This document shows positions 8,181-28,568 of a DNA stretch of 29,269 nt, one piece after another (position 1 is the stretch's first letter; each line of letters begins with the position of its first letter). Where the stretch lies: the IMG/VR virus record IMGVR_UViG_3300028581_000177, positions 1-29,269 of that record. One strand, written 5' to 3'. This DNA comes from a virus. A model generated the notes under the pieces. The model was not told the DNA's origin, did no database searches, and saw only the letters and a list, made by a program, of their open reading frames with translations. A program made the translations under genes and the position numbers.

Positions 8181-10207
8181 TAAAAGACTCCGTGATAAAT
8201 GATGTATGTTACAGTAGCAAACGGTGGAACTGTGGTGAATTCGATCTGCGATGTATAATTGTAAATGCCTTCGGTTCTTGGTAAACCAGATCCAGGATCT
8301 CCGCCAACTATCGAGACACCTACTGCATCTGTATCAGCAACTCCTGTTACATCAGTGGTTGCATAAAATTGCGTACCATCATCGCCCATTAAGCTGTGTT
8401 TGTGTTCAGGTAATTGATTTTCAATGATGAAATCGCTTTCGGAACCACCATATTGACCAACTGATTCTGCTGCCAAATCATTTAGTACTCGGTTACCACT
8501 TACTGCTCCTCCAAGGTGACCCAGTGGAACTCTTCCTCTAAGGTCCGGTATTTTAAAAAACGCAGTAGTAGTACCTGCACCAAAGTTTTCTCCAATAACT
8601 GTAAACAAAGCTGCATAGGAAACTTTAGATTTTTCTGTTCCGTCACATATAAACCAACCGGTTGGAGCCGTAGTTCCTGCATATGGCATCATTGACCCTA
8701 CTGGAATAACTGGACCTTGTGCTGTGTTAGGAATTTTACTGGTTAACGTTGCCTGGCTTACTCTTTTTAAACCAATGTCAGCACCGGCTAATCTTCTTAT
8801 AACGACTTGATCACTTGATTCAATTGTTGTTATCAATGTTTTTGATGTAAAGTAATTGTCACTCAGTGTAGTTGTAAATGTTTTTGTTGTACCTCCGGTT
8901 TGACCATCAAAAACAAAACTAGGAGCAGTTATATCACCAGTCATTACAAATGTAGTCGGACTGTTTAATCTTCCTGTAGTAGTTGAAGAACCAGTGACAT
9001 TTCCTGTTAAGCTTCCTACAAATGTACCATTAAAATTTGTAGCGTATATATTATTGAATCTTGATAAGTTTGTGCCTATGTTTTTACCTGTTGTTTCTGG
9101 CAAAATGTTACCATTGACAGTTAAAGAACCTTCTAAATCTAAATTACCACCAACATTTAAGTTTTTGGCTATGCCTGCTCCACCCGGTACTACTAACGCA
9201 CCATTTGAAATTGTTGTGCTTTCTGTAGTACCACCTAATGTTAATGTTCCGGAGGCAACTATATTTCCAACAACGTCTAGTGCTTCTGTTGGAATTTTTG
9301 TCGGACTGCCTATTGCAACCTTGGTATCATTGTACACCCTAATTGCTGTCGTTGCAACTCCTGCATTGTTGACTTTAACGTCAATACTTCCATCACTTGC
9401 TTTGTGAGAAATTTCTCCCACACTACCGCTGACAGAAAACACAAGAGTTTGAGTTTCGCCTATGTCAAGGCCACCGTTGTTTCTTATTCTCAGCGTTCTA
9501 GTTAATATGTTTTCTGTGCTTTTTCTAACAAAATCAGTACCCGGAACATTTATTCCTGAAATAACTAAATTTTCAGCTTTTTCTGCAAGACCATAATATT
9601 TTGCAGCAGATCCACTGATATTGCCGCTTATGTTAATACCTGGATATATTATGCTGTAACCTTGTATTACTGCTTTGGGTATAAACTCTACTGAGCTTAT
9701 AATCGAAACAGGTACATCGTTAACATAATTTATAATAACTGGTATTTCTTGGTTTGTTGTTGACGTAACTGTTACAAATTTAGATCCTGTACTTGCACCT
9801 TCGCTGTAATCCGGGCCTACCAATATCCACCCAGATCCGCTGTACAAATAAACCTGTTGATTAGCTGTATCTACCCATAAGTCGCCTATTGTACTAGTAG
9901 AAGCTTCTGGTTCGCTGGTGGCTTTTTTTAGACCGCCTGCGCTGACCCATTGTGTTCCATCATACACTTTTAATTGATCGATACCGTCAGTTGTGTCATA
10001 CCAAAGTTGTCCTTCTACTGGATTTTCTGGAGACGTAGTATTAGCAAAATTTTCTAACAAATGTAAAAAGTTTTCTAAAACAATATTACCAAAATCTGAA
10101 AGATTTCTTCCTGGTAGTTGAAGAGAAGTGTCTGTGTTAACAGTGTTGTCTTCAACTGTTATAGAACCTTTGTTAACACTGTCAGTAAAGTTTACTTCAT
10201 ATGCCAT
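8180..10207 (-). CDS. Tail-fibre protein with phage tail-collar tip (gp12-like end)
   Basis: A 675-residue fibre protein. Residues 1-135 are the adaptor shared with the two downstream genes (VEDNTVNTDTSLQLPGRNL, LENFLHLLENFANT, 'NPVEGQLWYDT', LKVYDGTQW, ILVGPD). The middle holds beta-shaft-like repeats such as NNIYATNFNGTFVGSLTGNV. From about residue 498 a Phage Tail Collar domain follows: IPVGSMMPYAGTTAPTGWFI, then a CDG element, 'YAALFTVIGENFGAGTTTAF', and PDLRGRVPLGH. A later LPEHKHSL near 597-604 resembles the paired histidines that bind metal in T4 gp12, the short tail fibre that grips the host surface. The end is 'TVPPFATVTYIIYHG'. By analogy this is the receptor-contacting fibre of the trio. 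The ATG at 10205-10207 follows the upstream stop by two bases, with GAGG in front. Confidence 0.88.
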   Translation of the reverse strand: MAYEVNFTDSVNKGSITVEDNTVNTDTSLQLPGRNLSDFGNIVLENFLHLLENFANTTSPENPVEGQLWYDTTDGIDQLKVYDGTQWVSAGGLKKATSEPEASTSTIGDLWVDTANQQVYLYSGSGWILVGPDYSEGASTGSKFVTVTSTTNQEIPVIINYVNDVPVSIISSVEFIPKAVIQGYSIIYPGINISGNISGSAAKYYGLAEKAENLVISGINVPGTDFVRKSTENILTRTLRIRNNGGLDIGETQTLVFSVSGSVGEISHKASDGSIDVKVNNAGVATTAIRVYNDTKVAIGSPTKIPTEALDVVGNIVASGTLTLGGTTESTTISNGALVVPGGAGIAKNLNVGGNLDLEGSLTVNGNILPETTGKNIGTNLSRFNNIYATNFNGTFVGSLTGNVTGSSTTTGRLNSPTTFVMTGDITAPSFVFDGQTGGTTKTFTTTLSDNYFTSKTLITTIESSDQVVIRRLAGADIGLKRVSQATLTSKIPNTAQGPVIPVGSMMPYAGTTAPTGWFICDGTEKSKVSYAALFTVIGENFGAGTTTAFFKIPDLRGRVPLGHLGGAVSGNRVLNDLAAESVGQYGGSESDFIIENQLPEHKHSLMGDDGTQFYATTDVTGVADTDAVGVSIVGGDPGSGLPRTEGIYNYTSQIEFTTVPPFATVTYIIYHGVF

Positions 10208-10209: not shown

Positions 10210-10821
10210 TTAAACCTCATTAAATCCGCTTAGGCTTTGAACTCTAACAGTATAATCAATTTGAATTAATCTGTTTAAACTTTTTTGTACAGGATGAAAA
10301 ATTACATGAGTTATTAATCTTCCTGTGCCGGTTGAGCTGTAACTTCTAAGTCCAAGTTCGTCAAAAACAAACAACTGATCGGTGTTTGCCGCTGTGTCAA
10401 ACGCATCTTGCCCATTGGGCTCGCCGTAGTCTAGTAAACAACTAACTAGAATATCTGTATAATTTGTACCTGACACATGTCGTATTTCTGTTTTATTTCT
10501 AGTTGGATCAGTATTGTTAACACTGCGATCGTCAACTACTTTGCTGTGTGTTTGATTATACAAACTAGCATTTGTGCCTGTTGTGTTAGGAGTTAGGTAG
10601 GTAATTATACCTGTTGGATCTACACTTGTGCCTCCATTTCCAAAAGCCATTTCGTATATGAATCCCTGTCCAGCATTTGACAAACTTTCAGCCAATGCCA
10701 AACTCATATTTTCGTAATGTATAGCATTACGTTTGTTAATAAATATTTCTCCTGTTTTTGGATCAAATATTTTAATATGTCCTTCGACATGTATTCCGTT
10801 AAGATCGTTTAAATTTGTCAT
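10210..10821 (-). CDS. Conserved marine T4-like phage structural protein
   Basis: A 203-residue protein between the giant gene and the fibre trio. Notable segments are VEGHIKIFDPKTGEIFINKR near 11-30, AIHYENMSLALAESLSNAG, EMAFGNGGTSVDPTGIITYL and the end LIQIDYTVRVQSLSGF. From memory, proteins with this N-terminus occur next to tail genes in marine T4-like phages and are annotated only as structural. The frame can be opened at GTG 10828-10830, but the ATG at 10819-10821 is preferred: AGGTG lies six bases before it, and that GTG is itself part of the ribosome-binding site. A late-promoter-like AATAAATA lies 17 bases upstream. Its job could be to link the giant protein or wedge to the fibres (inference from position). 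Confidence 0.8.
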   Translation of the reverse strand: MTNLNDLNGIHVEGHIKIFDPKTGEIFINKRNAIHYENMSLALAESLSNAGQGFIYEMAFGNGGTSVDPTGIITYLTPNTTGTNASLYNQTHSKVVDDRSVNNTDPTRNKTEIRHVSGTNYTDILVSCLLDYGEPNGQDAFDTAANTDQLFVFDELGLRSYSSTGTGRLITHVIFHPVQKSLNRLIQIDYTVRVQSLSGFNEV

Positions 10822-10838
10822 ATGTGTCACCTATACTA

Positions 10839-10846
10839 TATTTATT
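10839..10846 (-). promoter_or_regulatory. T4-type late promoter candidate (AATAAATA)
   Basis: AATAAATA on the minus strand has one mismatch to TATAAATA and lies 17 bases before the preferred ATG (10821) of the small structural gene. Its third to fifth bases are the TAA stop codon of the giant gene, the same embedding seen at 4837-4844 and 28587-28594. Confidence 0.5.
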
Positions 10847-13800
10847 TAGGTAAGAGTATTGTTGCTTCACGCAAGAATCTGCTTATATTATTATTAGAAT
10901 TTATCAATGTCTTGTTTGGTTCGTTCCAAACTTTGCCTGTAGTTCTTGCAATTACAACCTTAACTCCAGCAAATGGTGCTATTGCCAATACCAATGCATT
11001 GCCATCAATAGAAAATTCTGGAGGTAATGTTACATCTCCTTCTGGACTATCTTGTGCAATTGTTTGATTAAACAATTGCATTGAAGTTTTTCTCAAGCGT
11101 CGACCTGCAACAAAAACTTCAATTTCGTTAACGCTGGTAGGAACCATGTAATCTCTAAAAGTAAATGTTGTAGCTGTAGAACTGCCATCTGCTATTTCAG
11201 TTTGTGTAAGAATTACATCTGAATAATTGATAGTTTCTTCAGGACCTTGCCCGTATGCAACTGCGCCAACGTTGTGAATATTTTTTACACCTGTACCAAG
11301 AGTACCTCTTCTTAACTGCTGTAATCTATTGCCAACCACTTCAAAGTATTCAATGCGTTCACCATCTACAAAAACTACACCGGGTATGTTTTTTGCTTTG
11401 TTAGGTTGGAATATTCCAACAGTGTTTTCAAGAACAATTCTTAGATCGTAATAATTTAGAGGTTCTGCTAATACATAAGAATTATTTTGATTCAATCTTT
11501 TATAGTGTGTTCTGTTTAGCATGTCTTTGAATATTCTAAATCCGTACTTAGGAGATATCGGAGCATTGCCAAATTCAATAACATCAATTTTATCGTTGTC
11601 CATCGGCACGACAGATAGCTGTATTGCATCCATTGCAGGAGACAATACATAATCCATGTTAGGAGTTAACAATTCGCCATTGAGTGCTACCCAGACATAA
11701 TTTGCACTCGATGTTGTGTTGTTTAACTTGATATACCCACTGGATACAAGGTTTCTTGTTATCCAATTATCGGTATTTTCTTCAACATAGGTATCTCTTA
11801 ATACTTTGTATAGGGTTCTCTTAAAATTGTTAATATCATGATTGCTAAACTGATATATTTCAATTTCTGTTCCAGAACTAGGAGGTACTGCAAAAGTCAA
11901 GCTGTTGCTTAGTTCATATGCTACATCACCGATTGTTAATAATGTATCATTTAATTCAAACTCTGGCGAAGTTGTAAACGAATCTCTAATATCACTTCTA
12001 AACGATCTTACAAGAATTTCGTTGTTGTTTACAGTTTTAACATAAGCATTGTAAGAAGTACTATCGTTGGTGGATACCAAAGTAATTTCTGTATCTGCAG
12101 AAATTATTGCATCCACAGCACTTGTAAATGTTATTCTTGAATCAGTAAAATAATATTCTGCGTCAGTTATAATATAAACATCTAATGTGCTATCCGATAC
12201 TCCTATATTTTCCTGTAACAATCTTACAATTCCAGTGGTTGAATCAAAAGTAAATTCTTCTTTTGTCAACTGAGTTCCATTAACAAAAACCAAAACATTT
12301 GCTTCATCTATTGTGGTTAAATCACTGTATTGCCAAGAGTCTATTGCATATTCTCTTTCATCAGTTGTAATAAAAGATTTACTATAACCTGGACTTAAAA
12401 TTTGATTGTTAGATTTAACAATCAAGTTATATGCCAACGGTTGTTTACTAAACGGTACAGTATTAACAATACCGTCAAACTCATGATAATTTGTAGCGCC
12501 GTCGGCACTAAAAGTTTTATCAATGATCACTTGACTGTACGTTTTTAATGGTGTGTCATAAACAGCATACTGAATAAAATCTCCATCCGCAATTACAGAT
12601 ACATCAAATACAATCTTAAGTCTATTTGGATGTTGTTCAGTATCCAATGTTTTAATGTGATTGTAATCTCTGCCGTTTTCTTTAACTACACCATTGACTG
12701 TTACAAAAGTCGATAATGATTCACTCCATACTGCCGAAGTTACAATCCCAGTTGTACTACCGTCTGATATAGTGTATTCTGTGTCGATTAAGTTAGCACC
12801 GTTAACACCAATCGACAATATCGAAAGCAATGATCCTACTGGTATAGTGCTATCAGCAAATGAAACTGTTTGTGTTTCATAATCAACATCAAACATCTCC
12901 GGTTTTAAAATTTGATTATCAACTTTGATAATTATACCGTCGTTGGATTGTGGTATATTTGGCAAATTGAATACTGTTTGTGTACCATCAATTTTGTAAT
13001 TTGCAACACTGATAATTCCAACTCCGTCGGCAGATCTGTGATAAACTTTAAGATCAAGTGTATCTAACACATGTCCTGGTACTAATTCTTCAGGACCCCT
13101 TGCTGCTGTGGTTATAAAATCATCACCGTCGATTGTTATATCTGCACTAGATAGCCCTGTTGCTGTAGTATATGCAAAATTACCGCCTGTAATTGCAGTA
13201 TCGTAGCTTGCTTCAGATGGTGCAAGACTACCGTCACTGGTGCTTTTTCTTATTATGACAATGTCATTGGCAGTTGTTTCTATTAACTCTTCGTCGATTA
13301 TAATAGTGTCAGTTATTCCATCGCCTATAATAGTGGCCATTTTTGCATTTAAATTGCTCAACGGAGTACTAGTGCCAAAATTTTGATCATCTAACCTAAT
13401 ATTGTTAAGATAAAAATTATACTCAACATTTAATTCTAAAGGTTTGCTTAGTGTAAGCATCGATGTACTACCATCTAAAATAAATATCTCGTCTTCATAT
13501 GTATTGTCAAATGTATCCCACGGCATAGAGCCATATCCGCCAACACCGAATCCTTGTTCAGTACCAAAGTCAATGCTGTTTACATTAACACCTTCGTAGG
13601 ACACACCGTCCATAAGTTGCGAAAGTTCTTTTCCTGCCATGCCAGTTGTTGGATTGTAAAAGAAATTTATTCTATCGGCGGCATGTAGTAAAGATACATC
13701 TTTTTTATAATTTACTATTATTTGCGAATTCAATGCTGGAGCATCAACAAACTTTATGTATCCGATCTGTCTTTCAAATCCTTTTGTCAAATCAGTATCG

Positions 13801-16800
13801 TTTCCAACAGTAAATTTACTGCTTAATTGTTGAATTCCGTTAACTGTAACAGTATAACTGTCTGTTCTAATATTCATAGGCCATTTTAGAACAAACTTTT
13901 CTTTTGCTGCTGTTCCTACAAATGTTTGTGTTTCATTTAGTTCAGTAAAGAGATACGAACTGCTGATTCTATCAAATTTTAACACAATATGAGCAGATCT
14001 AACAGTACCATTACCTATAATAGCAACTGCTGTGGCTGGTTCACCACCTTCGTCTTGAGTTCCACTAATAGTAACTAGAGGTGCTTTATAATATTTGCCA
14101 CCTTTATTTACTATTTCAATTTTTGATACTCTTCCTCTGCTTAGATAAGCACGAGCAGTGGTTCCACTGTCTCCTGTAACTATAACAATCGGTGTTTCCT
14201 TATACTTAGATCCGCCGTTGGCTACTTCTATAGAAACAACATCGTAGCCGTTGTTGTCTGTCCAGTTTTTGTAAGGATACTCAAGATATTTTTCAATTAC
14301 ATTTTGTATTTGATTGTTGTTGTACTTGGCATAACTAGGCTCGATTTCTTTTGTTAATTCGTTATAACTAGGTGGCAAATCAAAGTCAGTGGTTAAAGAA
14401 TTAGTGGGCTCAACATAAGAATAAGCACTTATATATTCTCTTACCTTTGTACTGTATGGTTTAACTTCGTTAACATAGTCTTGATAGTTTTCAAGATTAT
14501 CGTTTTGAAAATTAACTGGTTGATGTAGATTTCCGACATTGTGTTTTACTTTCACAAAACTGGTTTTGAAGGCCCAATCCAATCCGTGCTGTTCGTGCAA
14601 CGCATATCTTACACTTGCAAAAAATAGACCTAGATATTCAACAGATAAGTCACCTATAAATATTTCAGTCTTTAATGCAGACAATATATTTCTTAATTCG
14701 TTTACTGGTTCTTTATCGTAGAATGTTAAATCAAACACATTTGCATCGTAGCCACTGTTGATAGATGCGTAATTGTAAAGTTTAGCCGAAAGTTGAATAG
14801 TTCCGTTTTGTCTACCAACAGTTTTATAATTTACTGTATAATCTTCAGTTGTTACGTTTGCAATTTTTTCTAACAATAGCCAACCACCGGAACCAACGTT
14901 GTTGATTTTTACAACTTCGCCGATGTCTGCATCAAGACCAAATAGTTCATAGCTTTGATCAACAACATGATCTATTTGTGTTAAGCTGGTATAGTCAGCT
15001 AGGTACCAATCAGCATAATCCCAATATCTAGTGGTATCATAATTCTGATTGTCTTTTCTGATCCACAGTTGGGTAGATTTATTCCATTCATAAATTGCCC
15101 AGCGACCGCCGATTTCAGAATCTGCATTAACTAAAACGCTGTATTTTCTAATATTTAATTTTACATTATCTGTATAATTTTTACCTTTGGATCTTATATA
15201 TGTACCGGTGATTTGTCCTAAGTTGTTTATTGTTGTTTTAATAATAGCATTTGTACCATTGCTGTCAACAATTTCAACATTAGGTGCAGTTTTATAGCCT
15301 CGACCAGGACTTTGAATAGTTACAGAAACAATTTTTCCATTCTCAACTGTTGGTATTAAAATAGCCTGTTCTGTTTTAGAAACTCCTACAAATCTCAAAT
15401 CATCCAGTGTTTCAATTACACTGTCGTATCGTCCAGTGGTACTTGCAGGTTTTTCGTCTTTTAATAACAGTGTAGAGATATCATAATTGTCAATTATTTG
15501 TTCATTAATTAAAACGCTGTTTGCTCTTTCTACCAATTGCTTAACTGCTTCTAATCTATTTACAAACATACCTTGGCGTGGAGAATTTAAAATTCCGTAT
15601 TTTTGTCTAGCAGGCAATGCCGAATCCGGCACTGTTTTTGAATTTTGATCGTATCCTACCAAGCTGTCTATCCACTTGTTTTCAATCTCAGTATTTAAAA
15701 CAACACTGTTGTATCCCTCAGTTAACAATTGATATTCTGAATGAATATTTGAATTTAAAGTTTCATCTTTGGCTATTGTAAAATGAATCGCTGTTTTTCG
15801 ATCTTCTATAAAAGTTTTTACATTGTATAGTGCAAAGCTATTATCACTTAATAATGCTGCAAAACGATATCCCTGTCCTGACGGATCAGCTATCAGATTT
15901 TCTATTGCAAATGCAGATAATTGACGTTTGCTGTTTGTAGGAACATTTTTTTTACTCTTGACCCAGAAATAAAATCTATCTACGAACGAGCCCGATATTG
16001 TATCATAAACTTTCTTAGAACTATATATAGTATTATCGTACAGAGGTTGCCCACTAAAACCTTGTGTAAATCCAGTAGGTGTATCTGCTAATTCAGACCA
16101 TCTCAATGGTGTTACTGTTGATTCAACCCATTCATAAACATCAATTGTTGACCCTGGCAATAGTTTGTTCCAATTCGAAACTCTGTATTGATCGTCTCCT
16201 TGATAAGGGTTAAACCAACTGGCAGTTTTTAATTCCCACCACAACTTGCCAACTTGATCTTCTGCCCAATTGTTGACATTATCAACTACAACTCCGTCTT
16301 GATTGTTTATATTGAAAGAATAGACAGCAGGATCGTAGAAAGTTTTCCATGTAATTTCTTGTTCTGCAGGACCTGGTATAATTCCTTGACGAGGATCTAC
16401 AACGTCAAGATTTACCAATAAATCGTTTGTATCTGTAGAGTACAAGAAACATCTTTGTATTTTGTCAATATTTGGTTTACCTTGTTGTACTGTTATTTCA
16501 GACCAGCTGTTTGAATTTTTTACAGAACGTAGATCAGCAAACAACCCAAGTGACGAGTCGTCTGACTGCTCGTAGTTGTAAACCAACACAGAGTCATCAG
16601 TATCTGATGGATTTAGTTTTGGAAAACCTATATACAGATGATTGTCAATTAATTTAAAATTACTGATATCGTTGTATTTTGTATTTCGATTATATGCAAC
16701 ATCTTCTCCGTAAATATACGAATCGCCGAGTTGTTGAAACAGTGCAATTCTGCCAGTATCTTTCAATACATTAACAAAGTTTGTATAGCTGTTGTCAAAT

Positions 16801-19800
16801 GTTGTGTATTCTTTTCTTTCTGCAGAAGTTGAATCTTGAACATATTTTGAATACTTAATTTCTCCTGTGTCTGTTGTTCCAACTGCGATTCCATAAAGAT
16901 TTTCAGTAAATCTATCAAATGTTGTAGCCACTTTTCGGTCTGTGTTTTTTCCAGAAATTGCTAATTTATTTCCATAAAAATCTAAACCGGTGCCAAAAGA
17001 TTCATTTTTTTCCTCAAACGGACTTCTTAAAATCTGCAATAATTGATAAGTCGACACATTGTTGGCGGTTGTTTGCTTATAGATATACACACACCCGCCG
17101 TCGATTTCAACATCGTCATTTCTAGAAGCACCTATACCCATTCTGTCACCAGTGTCGTTAATAGCAACTTTCAGACCAAAATCTTCAGACAAGTCAGCAG
17201 TGTCAATGTGTTGAGAAAATTTCCATCTTCCTGAATTGTTTCTATATACCGAGACTCTTTCTGATCTTACACCTGCTCCTAGGTTAACCGAACTGGAAAG
17301 AATAATAATATCCCCAAGCATGTTAATATCAAAATTCTTTCCTATGTTGATTGCATCATTGTACAACGAGCTGTCACCTTCGTTGTCTATAATATTGTTT
17401 ATTCTAGGAATGTAACCAGTGTACTCTACTGTTTCATCGTTGAGCAATATCCACAATGCTGAAACTCCAGGTATTGCCGATCCGGGTGTTATATTTGTAT
17501 CTGCACGATATATTGATCCATTATAAAAAACTATTTCATTTAAATTATAACTTGCAGAATCACTGTATATTCCTTTGTACAATCTATCTTTGCTGTAGGA
17601 CCATTCATTGTTTGCATTGTTAATAAAATATATTCTTCCTCGAGACAGTGACTCAGTTCCAGGAGATCCAACAAATAATCTAACTTCGCCCGATGCAGTT
17701 GTTCTGAACTCAACTTTATAACCAAATCTTTCATTATTTTTTGGATCCGGACTTGTAATACAGTGTATCAAATTGTAATATCCAGTGGTCTGTTTTTCAT
17801 AAAGATAAACTACACCCTGATTGACCAATCCTGATTCTGTTCCAGAGTCTGTTGTTTCGATTAGATAAACAGGTTCCCAGTCTTGATTGTTTGTGCTAAT
17901 GGTACTGCTTTCATCCCACGGTGCAAAAGACGAAATAGCTCTCCAAAGAGTTCCATTGTCACTAACAATATCGCCTATTTGATAAACAGTACCTGGAATT
18001 AGGTCACCCTTAAAATTAGTTTTAACATCGCTTGCATATGGTGCACCTACTGCAAGATATTTGCCATTGTTGGTTAACGCAACAGAATACCCAAATGCAG
18101 AATATCCAGAAACTGTATCGTCCTGAACAAGTGATTGTATTTCTCTTTTATCTGAAGATTCAGTTGATCTTGCATATATTCTTACTATGCCACGTTGAAA
18201 ATCGTCAGACACTGACCCAATGGCCAGTATGGTATTGGATGTATTAGAATCAAAGCTGGTGGCAAAACCGTCACCGTCAAGTGTAGGATTGACAATTTCT
18301 TCTTGAAGAGAAAATACATTTTCGTTTTTATAAACTCCCCAGGTGTTGTCTCCTTTGTCATCAATCCACACAGTGTCGCTGAATTCCTGTCTTAGAGATT
18401 TTATACTGGTATTTAATGTTTCAGAATTGGAGAATCTTCTAGCAACAAACTTAGCAACCCCTACTTCGTTACTGTCTGGCAGTGATTCGATATTGCTTAA
18501 ATTACCTGCATTGATTACTTGAATTTTATTCATTGATACTGCCCAAATTTTATAAAATTTGCTTATATCGTCGTTGGTTGACAACAGTCCAATGATGTCT
18601 CCCTTTTGGTAATAATTTTCAATATAGTTTTCGAATACAACTGTAAAACCTTCTATTACATTATTGTTTTCGTCGATAACTTCATCACTGATTAAAGTGC
18701 TATCAAACGATAGCACTTTATCACCAGTTTTAACTAATCTTAAAACATCCCAAGTTTGATTGTAATTCGAAACCCAGATAAAATCTCCTACACGAATTTC
18801 TGAAGATTGTAAATTAAGAATTGAATCATATCCGTTGACTATTGCTGCAACGTCTTGTTCTCTTACATATCCGTTGTCTTTTGTGTAAACAAAGTTTGTT
18901 GTATTAGATACAAAAGGTGCATGGATATAATCGTCGGGTCGTAGATAAACTTCATAAGGAGCAATTTCGTAAACCAAATCAGTTCTTGTACTTGATTTAG
19001 TATCTACTAATTTGATAATTTGCGGTTCTAATTTATATTTTGTTTCGTCAACTATGTATTCAACTTCGTAGATATTGTCTATTGCGCCGTATTGACCAAG
19101 TCTAATTGCCCATTCTTCGTAGAACTCGAGACTTTCTTCACCAGCAGTACTCAATGCATCAAATAACTTTGTTAATGCATTTTTGGTTCCTTTTTCAGAA
19201 ATATATCCTTGATAAAACTTGTATTGACTTACACTATCTGTAATAATATTTGAAAGATACTCGCGTTTCTGATATCCAATCAAATGTTGTCCAAGTCTTT
19301 GTTGTTCTGCATCAAAGTTGTCAGTATCTAGATCGTAGAAATCTGCAAATTGATTGGCTTTGTAATCCCAGTTAGCATACAGTCTCGATTCCGGTTTTTC
19401 ATCAAGTCTGTTCCAATTGTTAGCATCAAAATTTTCAGTACTGGTGTGCTTTAAGTTTGAACTATAATAAAACTCTTTGTACTTGACCAAATCTCCTATT
19501 GCATAATCTGTCCAAGTATTCCAGTTTGTAATCTTGGCTTCATCGTATAAAAATCCAGCAACATTTAAACTACCATCCCAATTGTCGGTTCTGTATCCTA
19601 CAAGTTTGATTCTTTCTTGTCGGTAGCCTGGCACTTTGTCATATATTGTGTCATTGAATACTGTTTGATTATCAATTAATATAACATGTTCTTTTTGTAT
19701 CAATGGTAGTTTTACCAAGAAAATTCCTTCATCAGAATTTACAGGAGTTACCCCAAAACTGTTTGATGAATTTCTAAATATGTTAGAAAATTCTTTTGAT

Positions 19801-22800
19801 ATTCTACTACCATTGCCGCCTATCAAAGTGTAGTCATAGAACGAATCAAAAATATCGTCTACTACATAATAATCTTTTGAAAACTCAACTTTGTTTGCAA
19901 CAGGACTTACTGACAATACTGTTCCGTTATCCCAATTTTGTGTAACCCAGAACATAAATTCTTTAATGCAGAGTAGCATGTCCTCTAACGCTTCAGTATT
20001 TTTATTGTAAAAATTAAACAAAAATCCTTTACTAACAAGATATGCTTCATAACCTTGCATAAAATCTACAACATCTTGTACACTGCTTAATACAGATCCG
20101 TAAGGCAATGCTGTCACTGTTGTTTCGTAATCTTTCCTAATCAATGCAGTAACTCCACCTGCTATTGGCAGACTTGGAAGTTTTACAAATTTTAGAGGAT
20201 CAAAAGAATCGTCGCTAAGGTGTGTGATTTTTGTTCTATAATACTCACTGTTATATCTAACAATAGTTCCAATGGTATAATTGTTGTTAGCATCCCAGTT
20301 AACAAACTGCTCGCTGATTCCACCTACAGTTATTGCAGAATCCATCGAACGAGCTATTGGTTTATTGTAATAAAACACTGGATCATCTTTGTCGTATCCA
20401 GATAATATATAACCTGATTCTATTTTTTCTATAATTATTCCACTGAAAACAACAGTTTCTAACACACTGCTTTTAGCCAATGTAATTTGATAATTTTCAT
20501 CTGGAACAAATACAGAAGTTTTATTCAGTGGACTTCTGCTGTCCAACACCAACTTTAGTTTTGACTTATCAGCATACCCGCCAATTTTTATAGACAATTG
20601 ATTGTCTAAATTAGACAACTGAGTTTTGTATGTTTCGTATTTTGAAGTAACTTTGCTTGAAATATAACTACTGATATAATTAATCATTCCAGCAGTTAAT
20701 ACCAACGGTTCGGTTGTTGTTATTGACGAAAATTTTAACTCTTTGAGATTAATTCTCTTTTTTGTATCTTTATAAACTAAGTTTCCTGCATTGTCTCTTA
20801 CTGTTCTGCTTATATCAAATCCAACACCTAGAAGTTTAGCTGGTTGTGACAATACCCATGCTGTAATTAAGGAAAATGGATACTCACTGCTTCTTCTCCA
20901 TGCTGATTCCACAGGCGAATTGTCACCAAATACAAAACTATTTTTTGTTTCAAGAAGAACAAAGTCTTGTGCTAATCCAGAATCTAAAGGACTTAATAAT
21001 TGTCCATATTCGTTTACAGGAATGTAATCAAGTAAATTTGTTCTAGTATACTTTTTATTTCTGTATACAGGTTTACCGGGTTCTCTGATTATACCCTCTG
21101 ACAAATCTCTCCATAGTATAAGATTGTCTTTTGTATAAGGTGCAGGGCCGTATACAGATTCCCACCAAGTTGGTTTTATAGTAAATCCTAACATTTCCCA
21201 AGGATGCGAATGGGGACGATCTGTATCAAAATATTGTTTGTATACATTTCTCCAATATCCTTTTAATGGGTTTCCAGTTCTATCAGACATAGAAGAATAA
21301 TTATAAGTAAAACTCACGTCCTTATCCCACCAGTCGTGAGATGCATAGTCTGGAGAACCTGCTAATTCTAACCATTGTGCAAAATCTGATAACATGATAC
21401 TGTCAATGTTGATTTTTGAAAAACCTGTATTTCTGTTTATAGAACCAACAAATTCGTGTATATCAATTTTATCAATATCATATGATACTTTTATGTTATT
21501 ATAAATTCTCATTTCGAGTTCTAATAACAATTGATCTCTGTAATCATCAAATCCAACAGTTAAACTGCCATCGTGCCCTTGTATTACTGTTCTAGGACTA
21601 CTGTATGTGTTATCAACAAATATCAAAGGTTCAAATTTAGGATAGAGTCCTAGTTTTGTTGGTGTAGGAGGTATATTGGATCCTGTAGAAGCTTCATATT
21701 CATATACTTCAACAATATCGCCAAATTGTAAATCTCTAGTGACATAAACAAAGTTTTCAGTGAAGTTATAATCTTTGTTGTATAATAATTGATTTCCATT
21801 TAGATAAACGCCAACGGCACTGATTGATAGTGTAGACAGATCAAAGTTTTTTGACATTGCAAAATATGCAGGCCCTGCATACTCTACAGTGTGCAAGGTT
21901 TTTCTTGCAGCACCAAAACCAATCATGTCGCCAAAGTAGAAGGACTTGTTGCCAATGCTTTCTTTGATAATTTTATCAATAATCAAATCAAAATGTGATT
22001 TTGTTGGGCCAACAAATCCTGAATTTTCAGCTTCTAATAAAAATTTACGTTTAAATTTTGCATATTCTTTTCTTGCATATTTCAAAGACTTGACTATATT
22101 TGCATTTTTGTCAGTTATGTGGTATAGTGCAATGTTTACTGGACCACTATGCTGTACAAATCTTTTGCCGTATGTTGACAGAGTAGAAAGATCTCTTAAA
22201 TTTCCTACACCTGGGTACACACCTGAAAATCCAGGAATATCTTCCACAATAGAATTTACATGATCATTAACTTCACCTAGCGTGAAATATGTCACGTTGT
22301 CATTTAATGGATTTCGTTCTAAGTTTGTTGGTATTTCGTAAAATCCATTTTGATTTTTTGAAGAATTACTAAAACACTTTAATAACACAAAATCGCCTAT
22401 TGTTAAATTATTTAAAAATTCAACAACTGCATATTTATTTTTATTAACGATATTATAATCTTTTCCAGGCACTTGTTTAACATTGTTAACATAAACCTTT
22501 ACTTCTAAGTCGGTTAAATCACTGCTATTATCAAACACATCAACTTTAAAAGACTCGTTAACAGAAGAAACTGTGAATTGTCTAATTACATACTGTTTGC
22601 TATAATTTTTAGATTTTGTCCATCCATTAACATAAGAAAATGTAGATCCATCATTTTTAAATTTCTTTAAAAATCCAGTGTCAGTTGATTTTGAAGTTTC
22701 AACTTGTAAATCAGTTTGATATGTAATTGATTCATTTAACAAGTTAAATTCAAAAACAATATCCCCAACGTTGCTGATATTTCTGTAGGTTAATGGAAAA

Positions 22801-24632
22801 CCTAATTCAATGTCAGCTACTCCTGTGCCTTCTTTGTAAGAAAACAATTTGTTTCCTGAAAAATTACTAGAAGGATATTCTAGTGTATTACCGTAACTAT
22901 ATCCATTTTCATCAAACAAATCAAATCTTGGAAACTGATTCACTGATAACTTTTCTTGAGACTGTTGCCATACAGACCCGTCGTAATAAAACATTTTTCC
23001 CTTGGCTGCGATGCCTTCGGTAATTAGTACAACACTGTCAGTTTCAGGAACAGAATCGTCAGTATCAATTAAAGAAATTTGTCGACGACCGTTGTGTGTA
23101 ATAAATTTTACTTCATATATTCTTCCGTTGACTATTATATCTGTGTCAGCAGAAAATATAACACGCATACCGTCTACTAAATCAATGCCGTCTATATTGT
23201 ATCCTAAACTGCCTTCGATTTTGCTAAATGCATCTTTGGTGTGGGTATCTATTAAATTAACATTGGCTTTCGGTTTAGTGCCGTGTTTCCAAAGTTTTAA
23301 TCCTGCTTCAAATTCTATAATTGGTCTTTTTGCACGAAAGGTTTCGTCTAAATCAACAGGCAAATTATTTGCAACAAATGAAGTTTCGATTACCGATCTG
23401 TGAAACCAGCGATTGTATCTAGACCAAGGATTTTTATCTACACTAGCACGATTAATTACAATATAATCTTTTGTTCCTGGAAAACTGGTAGCATCTTCAA
23501 AAGGCAAATTATCAAATCCGGTATTGTCAAACGGAACTTGGTATTCCTGTGTAAAAATTGCAGGAACTTCAAGATCTCTTTCAGAAATCAGTTGTATTTC
23601 TGAACCTACTCCGCTGATATACCAATAACCTGTATTATACTCTACTGGAGTAACAGATCCTTGAAAATATACTTGCATTCCGTTTGAAAGTTCAATGCCG
23701 CTGGATGTTTTATAGGTTTTTTTACCTAAGATTTCTGCTTCAACATCGATTTGTGTGTTTTCTGATATTTCAAAAATTGTTACTATTCCGCTTGTATTGA
23801 TGTTGTTTTGACTAACATAATACAACACTGCTGGCGCATCGTCCGGAACTGTAAATTCTATAACACCACTTTCAACGTAATCAGTGTCGGATGTTATTCC
23901 TTTTTTATAAAGTGTACTTTGATTTAGAAAATCAGTGTCAGCAGTCGGATCTGTGTCTAAAAAGTTTCTATTTGTAACAAATGCTATAGGATGCCCAGGA
24001 GCATCAACTTCAAATTTATATGTTTGACCTTTAAACAGTTTGATAGATGGATTTCTAGTTAATCCATTGGGTGTGAATATATAAGCAGTGTTGTCGCCCT
24101 CATCCGATGTAGTAACTTTGTATGTGCTTATAACATCTCTAGATTGCCCTGCAATACCAATAGGTTGAGGACCCATCGGTAGCCAATAGTATTCTCTAAA
24201 GTTTACAAACATATCCCAAGAAATATGCGGATCCCAAGCATAGAATTCTTGACTGTTCAACAAACTGTGATTGTCAACGGATCCTTTAAGGCTGACGATT
24301 TGCCCTATGTAATCATTGTAATCTTTAAAAAATTCAACATTGTTTAGCTCGTCTTTGTATACAAGCGATGGCTCTAATTGATAATTTTCTCTTGAAGTTG
24401 AAACATCCGGCAAGTAAACATCTGTCGACTTTGCTGCTTTTGCATATCTTCTTCCTACAAATGCATTGACTTTTTCAACCACACCCGGCTTGGTCATTTG
24501 ATCCATAGTACTGCTTAAAAATTTCTTATTTACATCAGTTCTAAAGTACTTGGGTAAAAAGTCTGCTGAGCTTGTATTAGATGTACCGCCAACTGGAAGA
24601 GGAAAATCTGATTGATCGTTTTCGTATGCCAT
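10842..24632 (-). CDS. Giant multidomain virion protein (about 4,596 aa) at the T4 gene 7/8 position
   Basis: One uninterrupted frame of about 4,596 residues. Its ATG (24630-24632) overlaps the gp6 stop as TAATG, with GGAGG twelve bases upstream. Modules in order: a conserved-looking N-terminal region (1-170); a cupredoxin-like module (about 172-290) with GQTYKFEVDAPGHPIAFVT and 'APAVLYYVSQ'; 'V-N-N/L-N-G' beta modules near 706 and 938; a Trp-rich block (about 1096-1180) including SHPWEMLGFTIKPTWW; chitin-binding-like modules near 1442, 1701, 2210 and 2354; FG-GAP-type repeats (2115-2690); GxGY-type repeats near 3098 and 3462-3520; and at least eight 'VNG' beta modules from 3591 to the end. 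No coiled-coil tape-measure pattern, signal peptide or catalytic site was seen. Position argues for a baseplate-wedge or baseplate-anchored fibre replacing T4 gp7/gp8 (gp7 has about 1,030 residues). The sugar-binding-like modules suggest surface adhesion. Function is inferred. Confidence 0.85.
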   Translation of the reverse strand: MAYENDQSDFPLPVGGTSNTSSADFLPKYFRTDVNKKFLSSTMDQMTKPGVVEKVNAFVGRRYAKAAKSTDVYLPDVSTSRENYQLEPSLVYKDELNNVEFFKDYNDYIGQIVSLKGSVDNHSLLNSQEFYAWDPHISWDMFVNFREYYWLPMGPQPIGIAGQSRDVISTYKVTTSDEGDNTAYIFTPNGLTRNPSIKLFKGQTYKFEVDAPGHPIAFVTNRNFLDTDPTADTDFLNQSTLYKKGITSDTDYVESGVIEFTVPDDAPAVLYYVSQNNINTSGIVTIFEISENTQIDVEAEILGKKTYKTSSGIELSNGMQVYFQGSVTPVEYNTGYWYISGVGSEIQLISERDLEVPAIFTQEYQVPFDNTGFDNLPFEDATSFPGTKDYIVINRASVDKNPWSRYNRWFHRSVIETSFVANNLPVDLDETFRAKRPIIEFEAGLKLWKHGTKPKANVNLIDTHTKDAFSKIEGSLGYNIDGIDLVDGMRVIFSADTDIIVNGRIYEVKFITHNGRRQISLIDTDDSVPETDSVVLITEGIAAKGKMFYYDGSVWQQSQEKLSVNQFPRFDLFDENGYSYGNTLEYPSSNFSGNKLFSYKEGTGVADIELGFPLTYRNISNVGDIVFEFNLLNESITYQTDLQVETSKSTDTGFLKKFKNDGSTFSYVNGWTKSKNYSKQYVIRQFTVSSVNESFKVDVFDNSSDLTDLEVKVYVNNVKQVPGKDYNIVNKNKYAVVEFLNNLTIGDFVLLKCFSNSSKNQNGFYEIPTNLERNPLNDNVTYFTLGEVNDHVNSIVEDIPGFSGVYPGVGNLRDLSTLSTYGKRFVQHSGPVNIALYHITDKNANIVKSLKYARKEYAKFKRKFLLEAENSGFVGPTKSHFDLIIDKIIKESIGNKSFYFGDMIGFGAARKTLHTVEYAGPAYFAMSKNFDLSTLSISAVGVYLNGNQLLYNKDYNFTENFVYVTRDLQFGDIVEVYEYEASTGSNIPPTPTKLGLYPKFEPLIFVDNTYSSPRTVIQGHDGSLTVGFDDYRDQLLLELEMRIYNNIKVSYDIDKIDIHEFVGSINRNTGFSKINIDSIMLSDFAQWLELAGSPDYASHDWWDKDVSFTYNYSSMSDRTGNPLKGYWRNVYKQYFDTDRPHSHPWEMLGFTIKPTWWESVYGPAPYTKDNLILWRDLSEGIIREPGKPVYRNKKYTRTNLLDYIPVNEYGQLLSPLDSGLAQDFVLLETKNSFVFGDNSPVESAWRRSSEYPFSLITAWVLSQPAKLLGVGFDISRTVRDNAGNLVYKDTKKRINLKELKFSSITTTEPLVLTAGMINYISSYISSKVTSKYETYKTQLSNLDNQLSIKIGGYADKSKLKLVLDSRSPLNKTSVFVPDENYQITLAKSSVLETVVFSGIIIEKIESGYILSGYDKDDPVFYYNKPIARSMDSAITVGGISEQFVNWDANNNYTIGTIVRYNSEYYRTKITHLSDDSFDPLKFVKLPSLPIAGGVTALIRKDYETTVTALPYGSVLSSVQDVVDFMQGYEAYLVSKGFLFNFYNKNTEALEDMLLCIKEFMFWVTQNWDNGTVLSVSPVANKVEFSKDYYVVDDIFDSFYDYTLIGGNGSRISKEFSNIFRNSSNSFGVTPVNSDEGIFLVKLPLIQKEHVILIDNQTVFNDTIYDKVPGYRQERIKLVGYRTDNWDGSLNVAGFLYDEAKITNWNTWTDYAIGDLVKYKEFYYSSNLKHTSTENFDANNWNRLDEKPESRLYANWDYKANQFADFYDLDTDNFDAEQQRLGQHLIGYQKREYLSNIITDSVSQYKFYQGYISEKGTKNALTKLFDALSTAGEESLEFYEEWAIRLGQYGAIDNIYEVEYIVDETKYKLEPQIIKLVDTKSSTRTDLVYEIAPYEVYLRPDDYIHAPFVSNTTNFVYTKDNGYVREQDVAAIVNGYDSILNLQSSEIRVGDFIWVSNYNQTWDVLRLVKTGDKVLSFDSTLISDEVIDENNNVIEGFTVVFENYIENYYQKGDIIGLLSTNDDISKFYKIWAVSMNKIQVINAGNLSNIESLPDSNEVGVAKFVARRFSNSETLNTSIKSLRQEFSDTVWIDDKGDNTWGVYKNENVFSLQEEIVNPTLDGDGFATSFDSNTSNTILAIGSVSDDFQRGIVRIYARSTESSDKREIQSLVQDDTVSGYSAFGYSVALTNNGKYLAVGAPYASDVKTNFKGDLIPGTVYQIGDIVSDNGTLWRAISSFAPWDESSTISTNNQDWEPVYLIETTDSGTESGLVNQGVVYLYEKQTTGYYNLIHCITSPDPKNNERFGYKVEFRTTASGEVRLFVGSPGTESLSRGRIYFINNANNEWSYSKDRLYKGIYSDSASYNLNEIVFYNGSIYRADTNITPGSAIPGVSALWILLNDETVEYTGYIPRINNIIDNEGDSSLYNDAINIGKNFDINMLGDIIILSSSVNLGAGVRSERVSVYRNNSGRWKFSQHIDTADLSEDFGLKVAINDTGDRMGIGASRNDDVEIDGGCVYIYKQTTANNVSTYQLLQILRSPFEEKNESFGTGLDFYGNKLAISGKNTDRKVATTFDRFTENLYGIAVGTTDTGEIKYSKYVQDSTSAERKEYTTFDNSYTNFVNVLKDTGRIALFQQLGDSYIYGEDVAYNRNTKYNDISNFKLIDNHLYIGFPKLNPSDTDDSVLVYNYEQSDDSSLGLFADLRSVKNSNSWSEITVQQGKPNIDKIQRCFLYSTDTNDLLVNLDVVDPRQGIIPGPAEQEITWKTFYDPAVYSFNINNQDGVVVDNVNNWAEDQVGKLWWELKTASWFNPYQGDDQYRVSNWNKLLPGSTIDVYEWVESTVTPLRWSELADTPTGFTQGFSGQPLYDNTIYSSKKVYDTISGSFVDRFYFWVKSKKNVPTNSKRQLSAFAIENLIADPSGQGYRFAALLSDNSFALYNVKTFIEDRKTAIHFTIAKDETLNSNIHSEYQLLTEGYNSVVLNTEIENKWIDSLVGYDQNSKTVPDSALPARQKYGILNSPRQGMFVNRLEAVKQLVERANSVLINEQIIDNYDISTLLLKDEKPASTTGRYDSVIETLDDLRFVGVSKTEQAILIPTVENGKIVSVTIQSPGRGYKTAPNVEIVDSNGTNAIIKTTINNLGQITGTYIRSKGKNYTDNVKLNIRKYSVLVNADSEIGGRWAIYEWNKSTQLWIRKDNQNYDTTRYWDYADWYLADYTSLTQIDHVVDQSYELFGLDADIGEVVKINNVGSGGWLLLEKIANVTTEDYTVNYKTVGRQNGTIQLSAKLYNYASINSGYDANVFDLTFYDKEPVNELRNILSALKTEIFIGDLSVEYLGLFFASVRYALHEQHGLDWAFKTSFVKVKHNVGNLHQPVNFQNDNLENYQDYVNEVKPYSTKVREYISAYSYVEPTNSLTTDFDLPPSYNELTKEIEPSYAKYNNNQIQNVIEKYLEYPYKNWTDNNGYDVVSIEVANGGSKYKETPIVIVTGDSGTTARAYLSRGRVSKIEIVNKGGKYYKAPLVTISGTQDEGGEPATAVAIIGNGTVRSAHIVLKFDRISSSYLFTELNETQTFVGTAAKEKFVLKWPMNIRTDSYTVTVNGIQQLSSKFTVGNDTDLTKGFERQIGYIKFVDAPALNSQIIVNYKKDVSLLHAADRINFFYNPTTGMAGKELSQLMDGVSYEGVNVNSIDFGTEQGFGVGGYGSMPWDTFDNTYEDEIFILDGSTSMLTLSKPLELNVEYNFYLNNIRLDDQNFGTSTPLSNLNAKMATIIGDGITDTIIIDEELIETTANDIVIIRKSTSDGSLAPSEASYDTAITGGNFAYTTATGLSSADITIDGDDFITTAARGPEELVPGHVLDTLDLKVYHRSADGVGIISVANYKIDGTQTVFNLPNIPQSNDGIIIKVDNQILKPEMFDVDYETQTVSFADSTIPVGSLLSILSIGVNGANLIDTEYTISDGSTTGIVTSAVWSESLSTFVTVNGVVKENGRDYNHIKTLDTEQHPNRLKIVFDVSVIADGDFIQYAVYDTPLKTYSQVIIDKTFSADGATNYHEFDGIVNTVPFSKQPLAYNLIVKSNNQILSPGYSKSFITTDEREYAIDSWQYSDLTTIDEANVLVFVNGTQLTKEEFTFDSTTGIVRLLQENIGVSDSTLDVYIITDAEYYFTDSRITFTSAVDAIISADTEITLVSTNDSTSYNAYVKTVNNNEILVRSFRSDIRDSFTTSPEFELNDTLLTIGDVAYELSNSLTFAVPPSSGTEIEIYQFSNHDINNFKRTLYKVLRDTYVEENTDNWITRNLVSSGYIKLNNTTSSANYVWVALNGELLTPNMDYVLSPAMDAIQLSVVPMDNDKIDVIEFGNAPISPKYGFRIFKDMLNRTHYKRLNQNNSYVLAEPLNYYDLRIVLENTVGIFQPNKAKNIPGVVFVDGERIEYFEVVGNRLQQLRRGTLGTGVKNIHNVGAVAYGQGPEETINYSDVILTQTEIADGSSTATTFTFRDYMVPTSVNEIEVFVAGRRLRKTSMQLFNQTIAQDSPEGDVTLPPEFSIDGNALVLAIAPFAGVKVVIARTTGKVWNEPNKTLINSNNNISRFLREATILLPK
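11073..13862 (-). other. C-terminal series of 'VNG' beta modules in the giant protein
   Basis: Covers about residues 3591-4520. Eight segments share the pattern hydrophobic strand, V-N-G or V-N-N/D-N-Q turn, L, D/F-x-x-x, a hydrophobic strand and a 'G-D/S-x-I/L-x-I/V' strand. Examples are TVTVNGIQQLSS (3591), IIIKVDNQILKPEMF (3896), FVTVNGVVKENGRDY (3973), VLVFVNGTQLTKEEF (4107), VWVALNGELLTPNMDY (4309) and IEVFVAGRRLRK (4501). Spacing varies from about 40 to 200 residues, so these are degenerate beta-sandwich repeats with inserts rather than a simple tandem repeat. Confidence 0.6.
16563..18290 (-). other. Probable seven-bladed FG-GAP beta-propeller in the giant protein
   Basis: Covers about residues 2115-2690. 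Seven segments fit the FG-GAP pattern (FG-x-S/K-V-x, an 'xLxVGAP'-like strand, then G-x-V-Y-I/L-Y): ILAIGSV..GIVRIYA (about 2128), FGYSVALTNNGKYLAVGAP (2180), FGYKVEF..RLFVGSP (2303), IIILSSSV..RVSVYRN (about 2434), FGLKVAINDTGDRMGIGAS (2485), FGTGLDFYGNKLAISGK (2546) and LIDNHLYIGFP..SVLVYNY (about 2656). Segments 2, 3 and 5 are strong; 1, 4 and 7 lack the FG and are degenerate. Two chitin-binding-like modules (about 2210-2254 and 2354-2398) are inserted within or between early blades. Confidence 0.6.
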
Positions 24633-27600
24633 TAGTAAATAAAGCCTCCGGTATTAGTGCTGTTTGTTTCTACAGAACTCTGAAGTCCTGTTGTGTTAGA
24701 TGTATAACCTGTGACCACAGTGCCTGTTGATCTTAATCTTTCTGCTGTAATTGCCGAAATTACTTCAACATCGTCAACTGTTGCACTGCTTATAAATATT
24801 TCGTCCGATTCTGCTTTTATTTCATGCAAGCTACCAAATGCGCTGTCTGAAGATCTAGGAACAATTACAATGCTGCTTAAATCAGGCGACAATTCTTTTA
24901 TGATATAAGCCGACATTTCACTCCAATAAAATGTTTCGCCAAAGTCCCAATTATCCAATGAAAAATATTGATTTATAGCTGTTATAACACGAGATTTTAA
25001 GTCGTTGTCATTTACAACTCTTTCAGGATTTTTTACTATTTTAAAAATTGCTTGCATATTTGTATCACTTTTGCCGCCAAATAAAATTTTGTATCTAACA
25101 GGATGATAAATTATTTCATCACTTATTGATTTTATCGCATTAATTTCAGAACCGTAAGATCTATACAGTTGATCTGTGCTTGGAGGACTTGGCATTGAAG
25201 TTGTTGTTCCTGAAAGCCATTGTCTAAAATTACTGTCATATTGTTTAGTTAAAATAAAGGTGTCAATGATATTTGATGAGCTAGGATCTATGCGATTATT
25301 TTCATCGCTTGCATGTATGTATTGAAACTTTAATTCCGGTCTTCCAATATATGCATAATAGTCGTAAACCACAGTTAGTGTTCTTGACGATGTTGTTAAT
25401 TGATAAAAACGATCTTCATCAATGACATAATAGATAGGGTTATTTTCAACCAGCATGTTTATATCATTTTTTCTAGCAACTGTTATTATGTTTTCAGTTG
25501 ATGCATCAACATACACAACAAATTCGTTGTTGTTTATAATAACTTTTTCATTAAAAATGTAATTTGTTTGATTTACTATTTCTGTAAAAATCTGAGGATC
25601 ATCTATTACACCATCATCGTCACTGTCAAAGAAAGTAACTTCGACTTTTTTACTGTCTACATATCCATCGCCGTCTCTGTAAACTCCTGAAATTTCCCAA
25701 TTGAAATCTCTAGTAAAAGGAGATGTACCAGTACCAGTGTTTATATCATTGTTGATATTAAGTACAGTAATTTTGTCTTTGATGATTTTTCCAGATTTGC
25801 TATCAAATATTTTTTTATTATTGTCAAAATAAAATCTTATTTCGTTGTTGCTTTCAAATATATATCTTAATGTTCTATAGGTTACATCATATGCAGAACC
25901 AGTTGTTTCAAAAAGCACTATCCAGCTGCTGTCAAGAGATTGACCTGTTTCGTCACCTGCTAAACCTAGATTAAAATCGTCAAGCACATTAAGGTTGTCT
26001 TGAGTTACGACTTCCCAACTGCGTGTTTCTCTGTCGTATCTTAAGCCAAATGTTCTATATGCAAAAATTTGATCAACAATAGAAATTTTTATATCATCGG
26101 AAATTTCTTTGACAAACTTTGGCTTGACTAGAGTCAGTACAGAATTGTTAGGGACAATATCGTTAAAAATTATCGGTCCAAGTCCTGATGAAGCAACAGT
26201 TGTTCCGTCACCGGTTACACTTACTACTTTGACCCACTTATAGGACGTAGAATTTTTTGCATTAGCATTGGTTGTTAATGTTCCGTCAGGTAAAAAATAA
26301 TAACCTGCAGGAGAAACAAACTTAATCATTGCTCCAGCCTCAATAAATCTCAATGGACCTTCGGTAAAATTGCCTACTTGGTATTTTATTGAGTTTTCAT
26401 CGGAAAAATAACCAGTCGATCTATTTGTATCGGCTGTTACCTGTACCCATTTTAAATTTAATTCCACATAATTTTGATCAGGAAATTCCTTTAAATAAAA
26501 GCTTCTTACATTTGTTTCGCCGAGTATATCAGTGATTTTATTTTCAATTATGCTTTCAATGTCTGTACGAGTAACAAAAGTAAAATTGTCTTTTTTATCT
26601 TTGTATTCAGTATACAATATACCATCAGTTCCAAACAGATTGGTTTTGCTGTATTTTCCAGTAGCATCAATTAAATCGTAATATCTACTGATACCGCTCG
26701 AAGTTCTATTAACTGCTTTAACTTTGATAATATCTTGACTTATGCCCAACGGACCTATATTGTAATCTTCAGCTGTTATTAAACGATTTTGAGTATAATA
26801 GGTAGCAGGCGCATTGGTTTTGATGCTTTCAACTGTTTCAGTACTACTTGCATTATCTACTGCTGTTTTAAGTTCAAGTGTACAAGTAATGGTTTCTTTT
26901 CTACCAATTTTGCTTATATAAGGAATTCTAATTGCAACATTTTTTATACTTGCTGGAAGTATTGTATAATCTTTGTTTGCACTTGTTCTATAATATACTC
27001 TAAATTTTCCCTTAGGAAGATTGCCAAAAATACCATCGGAGAAAACAAGGCTTACTCTATCATCAACTCTAGTTAAAACACTGTAAATGTTTTTTATTTG
27101 TTTGTTTAAACTGTTGTAAACAATGTTGTTTCCTTCTACAGCAGAAACTTTGGTCCATAGTTCAGACTCGTTGTTTGAACTATCAAGACTGTACAGCCAT
27201 ATATCAGTATCGTTGATGTTTTGCACATCAATATCAATTTTTTGATTTGGAGTTGGAAAATCTACTAACAGATCATTTCTTTTCAGCGATCCTTGTCTAA
27301 AGTGCATGAAAAAGCCAGTTGAATTACTGGCTGCGCCTTGCCCGTTATCCCTATATAAAAACGAAAGTTGATTATTGGGCAGCGGCGGGTCTTCTACAAT
27401 TTCTCCGTTTGATATAGTAGAACTAACTACTTCAAAATCAAAACTCTGGTTGTTAATAGGTTTAGAAAAAGCATATACAGGAATTCCAGTTGACGAAGAT
27501 GAAAATCTATACTGTTCTGTTGGTATTCCACTAACTGTATCAAGTTTTATAGGTCTTCCAAAAGAATTTTGTATTGGCAACGCTGCATTAACAACTTTAA

Positions 27601-28069: not shown

Positions 28070-28093
28070 TAGCACTTTCCTCAGTTTATGTTG

Positions 28094-28124: not shown

Positions 28125-28568
28125 TTAAACAATGTTGTTATTTCTATCAAATCTAAATTGCAAGTATTCTGAAATACTATAATCTAGGTAGGTTAATTCA
28201 CACTGTATCTGTATGCCAGATTCATAACTATCAACTATAATTTTGTCTACAGTTACCCTTGGATCATAATTGATAATTTCTGTTACATTTTTTACAATAG
28301 TTTCTTTTAAAGATTCTGTAAACGGTTCGTATAAAACATCCCACATGATTGTTCCGAAGCCGGGATTTTCTAACTTTTCACCTAGTCTGATATGGAAATG
28401 ATTTACAATATCTTGTTTTATTAATCCAATATCAAAAAGCTTGTATTCTTTTGTATCTGGGTCGGTTGTGCTTATACCTTTATAGGTTCTACTTTCAACG
28501 GGTTTTACAACCACGTTTTGTGGCTGTATTTTTAAATTTTTATATAGATTTTTTTCTAACGAACTCAT
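28125..28568 (-). CDS. gp25: Baseplate wedge protein gp25 (GPW/gp25 family)
   Basis: A 147-residue protein of the GPW/gp25 family, the baseplate wedge component that with gp6 and gp53 forms the wedge core and, in T4, provides the site where sheath polymerisation begins. The family signature is present: HFHIRLGEKLENPGFGTIMW (58-76) followed by 'EPFTESLKETIVKNVTEIIN' (81-100) and YDPRVTVDKI (101-110). Length is close to T4 gp25 (about 130 residues), with a short N-terminal extension. The ATG at 28566-28568 has only a weak, distant AAGG in front, and a GATAAATA late-type site lies 18 bases upstream of the start. Order gp25 then gp6 supports the assignment. Confidence 0.95.
   Translation of the reverse strand: MSSLEKNLYKNLKIQPQNVVVKPVESRTYKGISTTDPDTKEYKLFDIGLIKQDIVNHFHIRLGEKLENPGFGTIMWDVLYEPFTESLKETIVKNVTEIINYDPRVTVDKIIVDSYESGIQIQCELTYLDYSISEYLQFRFDRNNNIV

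Follow-up and report, generated by a model that had tools for sequence, protein, structure and literature searches.

A giant gene directly downstream of gp6 in a jumbo-phage fragment probably encodes a baseplate-wedge protein in the place of T4 gp7

The IMG/VR virus record IMGVR_UViG_3300028581_000177 (29,269 bases), analyzed over its whole length and called the window here, carries a giant gene of 4,596 codons (10842..24632, minus strand). We conclude, with a probability of roughly 0.6, that its product is a baseplate-wedge protein of a jumbo myovirus, which stands in the place of T4 gp7 and most likely does the job of gp7. This conclusion is based on the order of the gp25-like and gp6-like genes, on the presence of homologues in purified virions and on the relatives, in which searches detected no separate gp7. 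The cyanophage giants in the equal slot (P-SSM2, S-MbCM6 and S-WAM1), which carry a gp7 core, point in the same direction, as does the placing of a gp7-core profile at one spot of most giants. Against it stand the weak gp7-core scores, an empty reciprocal search, the low pLDDT of the candidate motif and the giant of phage SCTP-2, which lies apart from gp6.

All large genes of the window are on the minus strand, to which all coordinates below refer, in the order gp25-like gene, gp6-like gene, giant, 206-aa gene and a run of fibre- or collar-type genes. The gp25-like baseplate wedge gene (28125..28568; 147 aa) matched phrog_261 (3.9e-13) and phrog_43 (8.8e-10); in Pfam, its match to PF04965 (GPW_gp25; 5e-5) was slightly under the family cut-off. 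The gp6-like baseplate wedge gene (24632..28075; 1,147 aa), which is present in 64 phage records, matched phrog_10646 (1.2e-300) and the T4 gp6 family phrog_219 (4.2e-27). Its stop codon and the start codon of the giant form a TAATG overlap (24630..24634): the junction reads TTTACTAATGGCA, with one A common to the TAA of the gp6-like gene and the ATG of the giant, and a GGAGG is located about a dozen nucleotides upstream of this ATG. On the 3' side of the giant, the 206-aa gene (10210..10830) matched phrog_11259 (7.6e-68); the GTG proposed by the ORF finder is possibly not its true start. The earlier note on this DNA had described a single unbroken 4,596-residue frame after gp6; its coordinates and length were exact, and the strand, which it did not give, is minus. 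Indeed, the frame starts with ATG, has no internal stop and encodes a protein of about 518 kDa with five cysteines. It was also correct that T4 encodes gp7 and gp8 (1,032 and 334 aa) at the equivalent point after gp6.

Apart from the unusual length of the frame and the nature of the record, a metagenomic fragment, nothing speaks for an assembly artefact or a tape measure, and we consider the probability of either to be negligible. The modeled parts of the protein are predicted to be mainly beta, which argues against a tape measure. An artefact, named earlier as an outcome that would overturn the observation, is already refuted by independent isolates, since the same 13.8-kb open frame recurs in many independent contigs and homologues were found in dozens of phage isolates (blastp and tblastn). 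Each of two viral-contig scans gave at least almost 600 confirmed relatives. Copies in other contigs were 46 to 94% identical, and a 330-kb relative contig contains a 4,610-aa frame with 90% identity over the region searched. Furthermore, 139 distinct metagenomic loci showed the start of the giant and at least 400 nt upstream of it. The gp6-like frame ended no more than 120 nt from the giant in every one of them (139/139), and the TAATG overlap was found in 111. Among these loci, the frames that were complete in their own contig had a median length of 4,721 codons and reached up to 5,303; the shortest (378 codons) was a broken one.

The window gene is a further member of a family that is already catalogued and widespread among jumbo phages. 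The giant matched PHROG 10938, annotated as a virion structural protein, with E = 0 and 1072 bits in four stretches, the best of which comprised residues 702-1701, and it belongs to this family both by the profile match and by its position directly after the gp6-like gene. Homologues after gp6 were present in Atu_ph07 (4,449 aa), Phosso (4,555 aa), PA5oct (3,857 aa), PBECO4 (3,333 aa), RaK2 (3,326 aa), Munch (3,342 aa), CBB (3,340 aa), XaC1 (3,332 aa) and Vibrio phage 2.275.O (3,771 aa). Two members had already been detected in virions: CBB_236, of which 21 peptides covered 7.72% (PMC5259590), and PA5oct gp355, the record of which carries an ESI-MS/MS note for detection by mass spectrometry. 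With the family previously annotated and found in virions, the novelty attributed to the gene does not hold. A table for Sinorhizobium phage AP-J-162 contains a 131-aa wedge protein, a 1,198-aa wedge protein and a 4,455-aa structural protein (PMC11242549), a trio that looks like the counterpart of the gp25-like, gp6-like and giant proteins.

The PHROG 10938 giants CBB_236, RaK2 ORF070, PBECO4 gp538, PA5oct gp355, Atu_ph07 gp180 and Phosso 294 have the position after gp6 in common with the window gene. They also share its blocks 24-150, 300-1980 and 2700-3420, with roughly 25-35% identity in the aligned blocks. With 4,596 residues, the window protein belongs to the longer members (3,326-4,555 aa in these giants), and it differs from them by extra modules at residues 160-370 and 1990-2700. 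In nine of the ten named phages, the gp6-like gene is followed by the giant. The exception is Salicola phage SCTP-2, where the giant (3,807 aa) and the best gp6 match of the phage are about 90 kb apart. Because of this distance, the linkage between gp6 and the giant is not absolute and is broken in the SCTP-2 lineage. A 3,096-aa gene (record positions 8630-17920) stands before the giant in SCTP-2. In Klebsiella phage K64-1 (NC_027399.1, 54898-56250), three hypothetical protein annotations were found beneath one giant match, so that some records may contain a giant in several annotated pieces.

The three family-wide conserved blocks (residues 24-150, about 300-1980 and 2700-3420) are separated and followed by variable parts. 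The conserved N-terminal region (residues 24-150; 24183..24563) is common to all homologues. Downstream of it, the AF2 model and VIA revealed a cupredoxin-like domain (residues 167-288; 23769..24134; Z about 9-10, rmsd about 2.4 Å over 95-101 residues), which according to occupancy is missing from RaK2-like homologues. This model, which covers residues 1-900 with good confidence (mean pLDDT 85.3; pTM 0.79), resembles predicted structures of family members in BFVD, such as the Atu_ph07 structural protein (TM 0.69). Pfam analysis detected three stretches of PF02839 (CBM5/12) in the giant, the best at residues 1445-1473, corresponding to a CBM5/12 module at residues 1446-1483 (20184..20297). A CBM5/12-like module at residues 1703-1743 (19404..19526) has the fold of a small domain of the phage Milano baseplate (8fqc_P1; VIA Z 8.0, rmsd 1.4 Å, 45 residues). 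The second half of the protein contains a variable beta region of low conservation (residues about 2100-2690; 16563..18335) with an FG-GAP repeat (PF14312 at residues 2165-2204) and the second conserved core in the family alignment (residues 2700-3420; 14373..16535). GSGY-type repeats are located at residues about 3104-3155 and about 3470-3524 (14061..14225), with matches to cyanophage giant gp7. Family comparison defined a variable C-terminal region (residues 3421-4596; 10845..14372), in which block 4342-4449 is common to PA5oct (40% identity). Thus, the protein consists largely of beta modules, as the earlier note had described (three CBM5/12 stretches, FG-GAP, cupredoxin-like domain and GSGY-type repeats). 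Modules of this kind would be compatible with a binding of surface sugars.

Neither the T4 gp7 family (phrog_964) nor the T4 gp8 family (phrog_977) matched the giant. Both were also without a match in 11 related records, several of which are complete genomes, while T4 was positive. As a sensitivity check, phrog_219 (T4 gp6) found the divergent gp6 in 9 of 10 relatives tried; for gp8, T4 was the sole positive control, none of the relatives serving as a distant one, and therefore the absence of a separate gp8 in the relatives is not established. When every part of the giant was compared by shallow-profile hhalign with T4 gp6, gp7, gp8, gp9, gp10 and gp11, nothing reached 15% probability, at a low power because the T4 side consisted of single sequences except for gp7. 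With two models, Foldseek and VIA gave only small CBM5/12-like and cupredoxin-like domains plus family members in BFVD, and the gp7, gp8 and gp10 folds were absent from the matches returned, by which such folds are not excluded. When the conserved blocks were compared by sequence with the PDB, no meaningful match was obtained.

These results bear on the proposal of a fused and expanded wedge arm, one of two readings offered earlier. The expanded arm is retained as the better reading, but a fusion of gp7 and gp8 is improbable. The failure of phrog_977 to find gp8 in the relatives, in a search with no distant positive control, would fit such a fusion, but no gp8-like match was present within the giant. 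Furthermore, the few matches of giants to the gp8-type phrog_438 fall in an inserted repeat (profile positions 185-264), away from the parts of this profile to which T4 gp8 corresponds, and P-SSM2 has a separate gp8 in addition to its 5,195-aa gp7. Matches of homologues to phrog_26741, phrog_2885 and phrog_438 were rejected as evidence for gp7 or gp8. They most likely correspond to GSGY repeats in the Atu_ph07 and Phosso inserts, since profiles of the motif region (A8) and of the N-terminus (A9) match no gp7 family. Profile comparison also gave no support to another candidate, a gp7 element near the N-terminus (residues 22-50) with an insert of 1,650 residues behind it.

A candidate gp7-type wedge-core motif with a predicted helix-KG-helix is located at residues 1786-1827 (19152..19277), where weak profile matches were obtained. 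For its analysis, a gp7-core profile (A10) was used that comprises T4-type, cyanophage giant and Otagovirus gp7 and the 503-aa Menderavirus gp7, without the giants of the jumbo family. The source cores are mutually related (hhalign probabilities 84-95%), and A10 recovers known gp7 genes in whole genomes with E values of 1e-23 to 1e-31. Of 13 jumbo-type records, two gave a weak A10 match (E 0.008 in one and 0.066 in the other), each time at one and the same spot inside the giant, and no gp7-core candidate was detected outside it. The best A10 place was the spot at residues ~1786-1827 in 101 of 122 non-redundant giants (5.8 expected by chance), although these are not 101 independent tests because the giants are mutually related. 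The top scores were 7.0 bits at the spot and 0.3 bits elsewhere, compared to 3.2 bits for reversed sequences. Six of the ten isolate giants (RaK2, CBB, Munch, PBECO4, Atu_ph07 and Vibrio 2.275.O) had their best A10 match elsewhere or had none.

Profile-profile comparison of the gp7 core with a deep profile of window residues 1700-1900 gave a score of 26.0, compared to at most 21.3 for 60 column shuffles and 9.8 for the reversed profile, and this place came first in a scan of the full-length giant. AF2 predicted helices at residues 1800-1814 and 1816-1829 that meet at KG, with low pLDDT. In summary, the KG(T/I) helical-core element has a consistent place and scores above the shuffles, yet its match is weak and the reciprocal search, with the giant profile against gp7 proteins, found nothing. 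We consider homology of the giant to gp7 through this wedge-core element likely but unproven.

T4 gp7 (1,032 aa) resembles the giant in its slot after gp6, in its overlapping start and possibly in a helix-KG-helix element. However, it is 4.5 times shorter, its family profile phrog_964 does not match the giant, and its core follows after ~640 residues, in contrast to ~1,780 in the giant. The cyanophage proteins are closer in size. P-SSM2 PSSM2_111 (5,195 aa), annotated as gp7, comes right after gp6 and is followed by the separate gp8, and the slot after gp6 is also occupied by giants in S-MbCM6 and S-WAM1. The frames after gp6 in S-MbCM6 (record positions 11949-28120) and S-WAM1 (11883-28078) imply about 7,022 and 6,737 aa, respectively, with the gp7 core near residue 700. 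Like the window gene, the cyanophage giant gp7 genes are located directly after gp6, encode GSGY-type repeats and belong to a marine myovirus; unlike the window, they have a clear gp7 core near the N-terminus and, in P-SSM2, a separate gp8. The conserved blocks of the window protein showed no alignable homology to cyanophage giant gp7. A full-length alignment with cyanophage gp7 was discarded, as the repeats alone match.

Alternatively, the giant could be a fibre or adhesin that is bolted next to gp6 and is no relative of gp7, the true gp7-type subunit being a short unrecognised protein encoded elsewhere. Such a protein would account for the mosaic architecture, in which carbohydrate-binding-like, cupredoxin-like and FG-GAP modules are combined, for the weak gp7-core match with its empty reciprocal search and for the separation of the giant from gp6 in SCTP-2. 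Still, we consider it clearly less probable than the wedge protein, given the constant coupling to gp6 in the metagenomic loci (139/139), the 13 jumbo-type genomes without another gp7-core candidate and the clear gp7 core of the cyanophage giant in the equal slot.

How the giant may act as a wedge protein is suggested by known contractile tails, in which a pair of gp6-type chains forms the wedge together with a single gp7-type chain, as in the (gp16)2-gp17 module of XM1, where the gp7-type chain is part of the helical core bundle and bears spikes (PMC10457771). XM1 gp17 (242 aa) represents the minimal gp7 type, and one chain per gp6-type pair corresponds to a general contractile-wedge design (PMC10457771); it differs from the giant by its minimal size and by spikes on loops instead of modules. 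In T4, gp7 is monomeric, with six copies and contacts to gp10, gp8 and gp6; upon firing, domain A of gp7 swings outwards (PMC3004832). By analogy, the giant would most simply be the third wedge chain, with a very large periphery. There would be about one giant per wedge and six per virion. The short helical element near residues 1786-1827, as the putative counterpart of the gp7 element in the (gp6)2-gp7 wedge module, would grip the gp6 pair. The other ~4,500 residues, mostly beta modules of which some are family-wide and some swapped between members, would build the baseplate rim, hold fibres and possibly touch the host surface. Upon contraction, the giant arm would move outwards like domain A of T4 gp7. 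The suggestion of the earlier note that the coupling to gp6 implies matched stoichiometry was not supported. In T4, genes 6 and 7 have four bases in common (83060-83063), yet 12 gp6 and 6 gp7 are present (PMC3004832), and therefore equal amounts do not follow from an overlap of genes.

Going further, the giant might be a true gp7 orthologue, the ancestral core of which was buried ~1,780 residues deep as surface modules were repeatedly inserted and added. Jumbo phages and cyanophages would then have independently enlarged the wedge subunit, leading to a ~500-kDa single-chain rim that replaces several T4 rim proteins. We regard this scenario as speculative and rather unlikely as a whole. If the gp7 reading of the giant is true, it explains the failure to find T4 gp7 in RaK2-like and related jumbo phages and names the protein to seek in their baseplates. 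Should the gp7 core be confirmed, a single wedge subunit would range in size from 242 aa (XM1) to more than 5,000 aa and would clearly exemplify how the insertion of modules enlarges a part of a viral machine. Since the giant is already in databases and virion proteomes, this is a clarification rather than a discovery.

Other genes of the window were inspected as well. Two overlapping genes (755..1597 and 1587..2435) appear by eye similar to nucleotide-sugar glycosyltransferases, with an LDSD/LDTD motif, and no Pfam family passed 0.01. The adjacent genes 2839..3840 and 3889..4809, which matched no PHROG or Pfam family, look by eye like paralogues with a shared FFNAGGE.RF.. motif. Three consecutive fibre-type genes (4840..6330, 6369..8180 and 8180..10207) have a similar N-terminal stretch of ~90 residues, in which all three match phrog_15511 and phrog_14394, and the first of them in gene order contains a Collar domain. 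From the similar N-termini, it appears as if three different fibres had one attachment domain.
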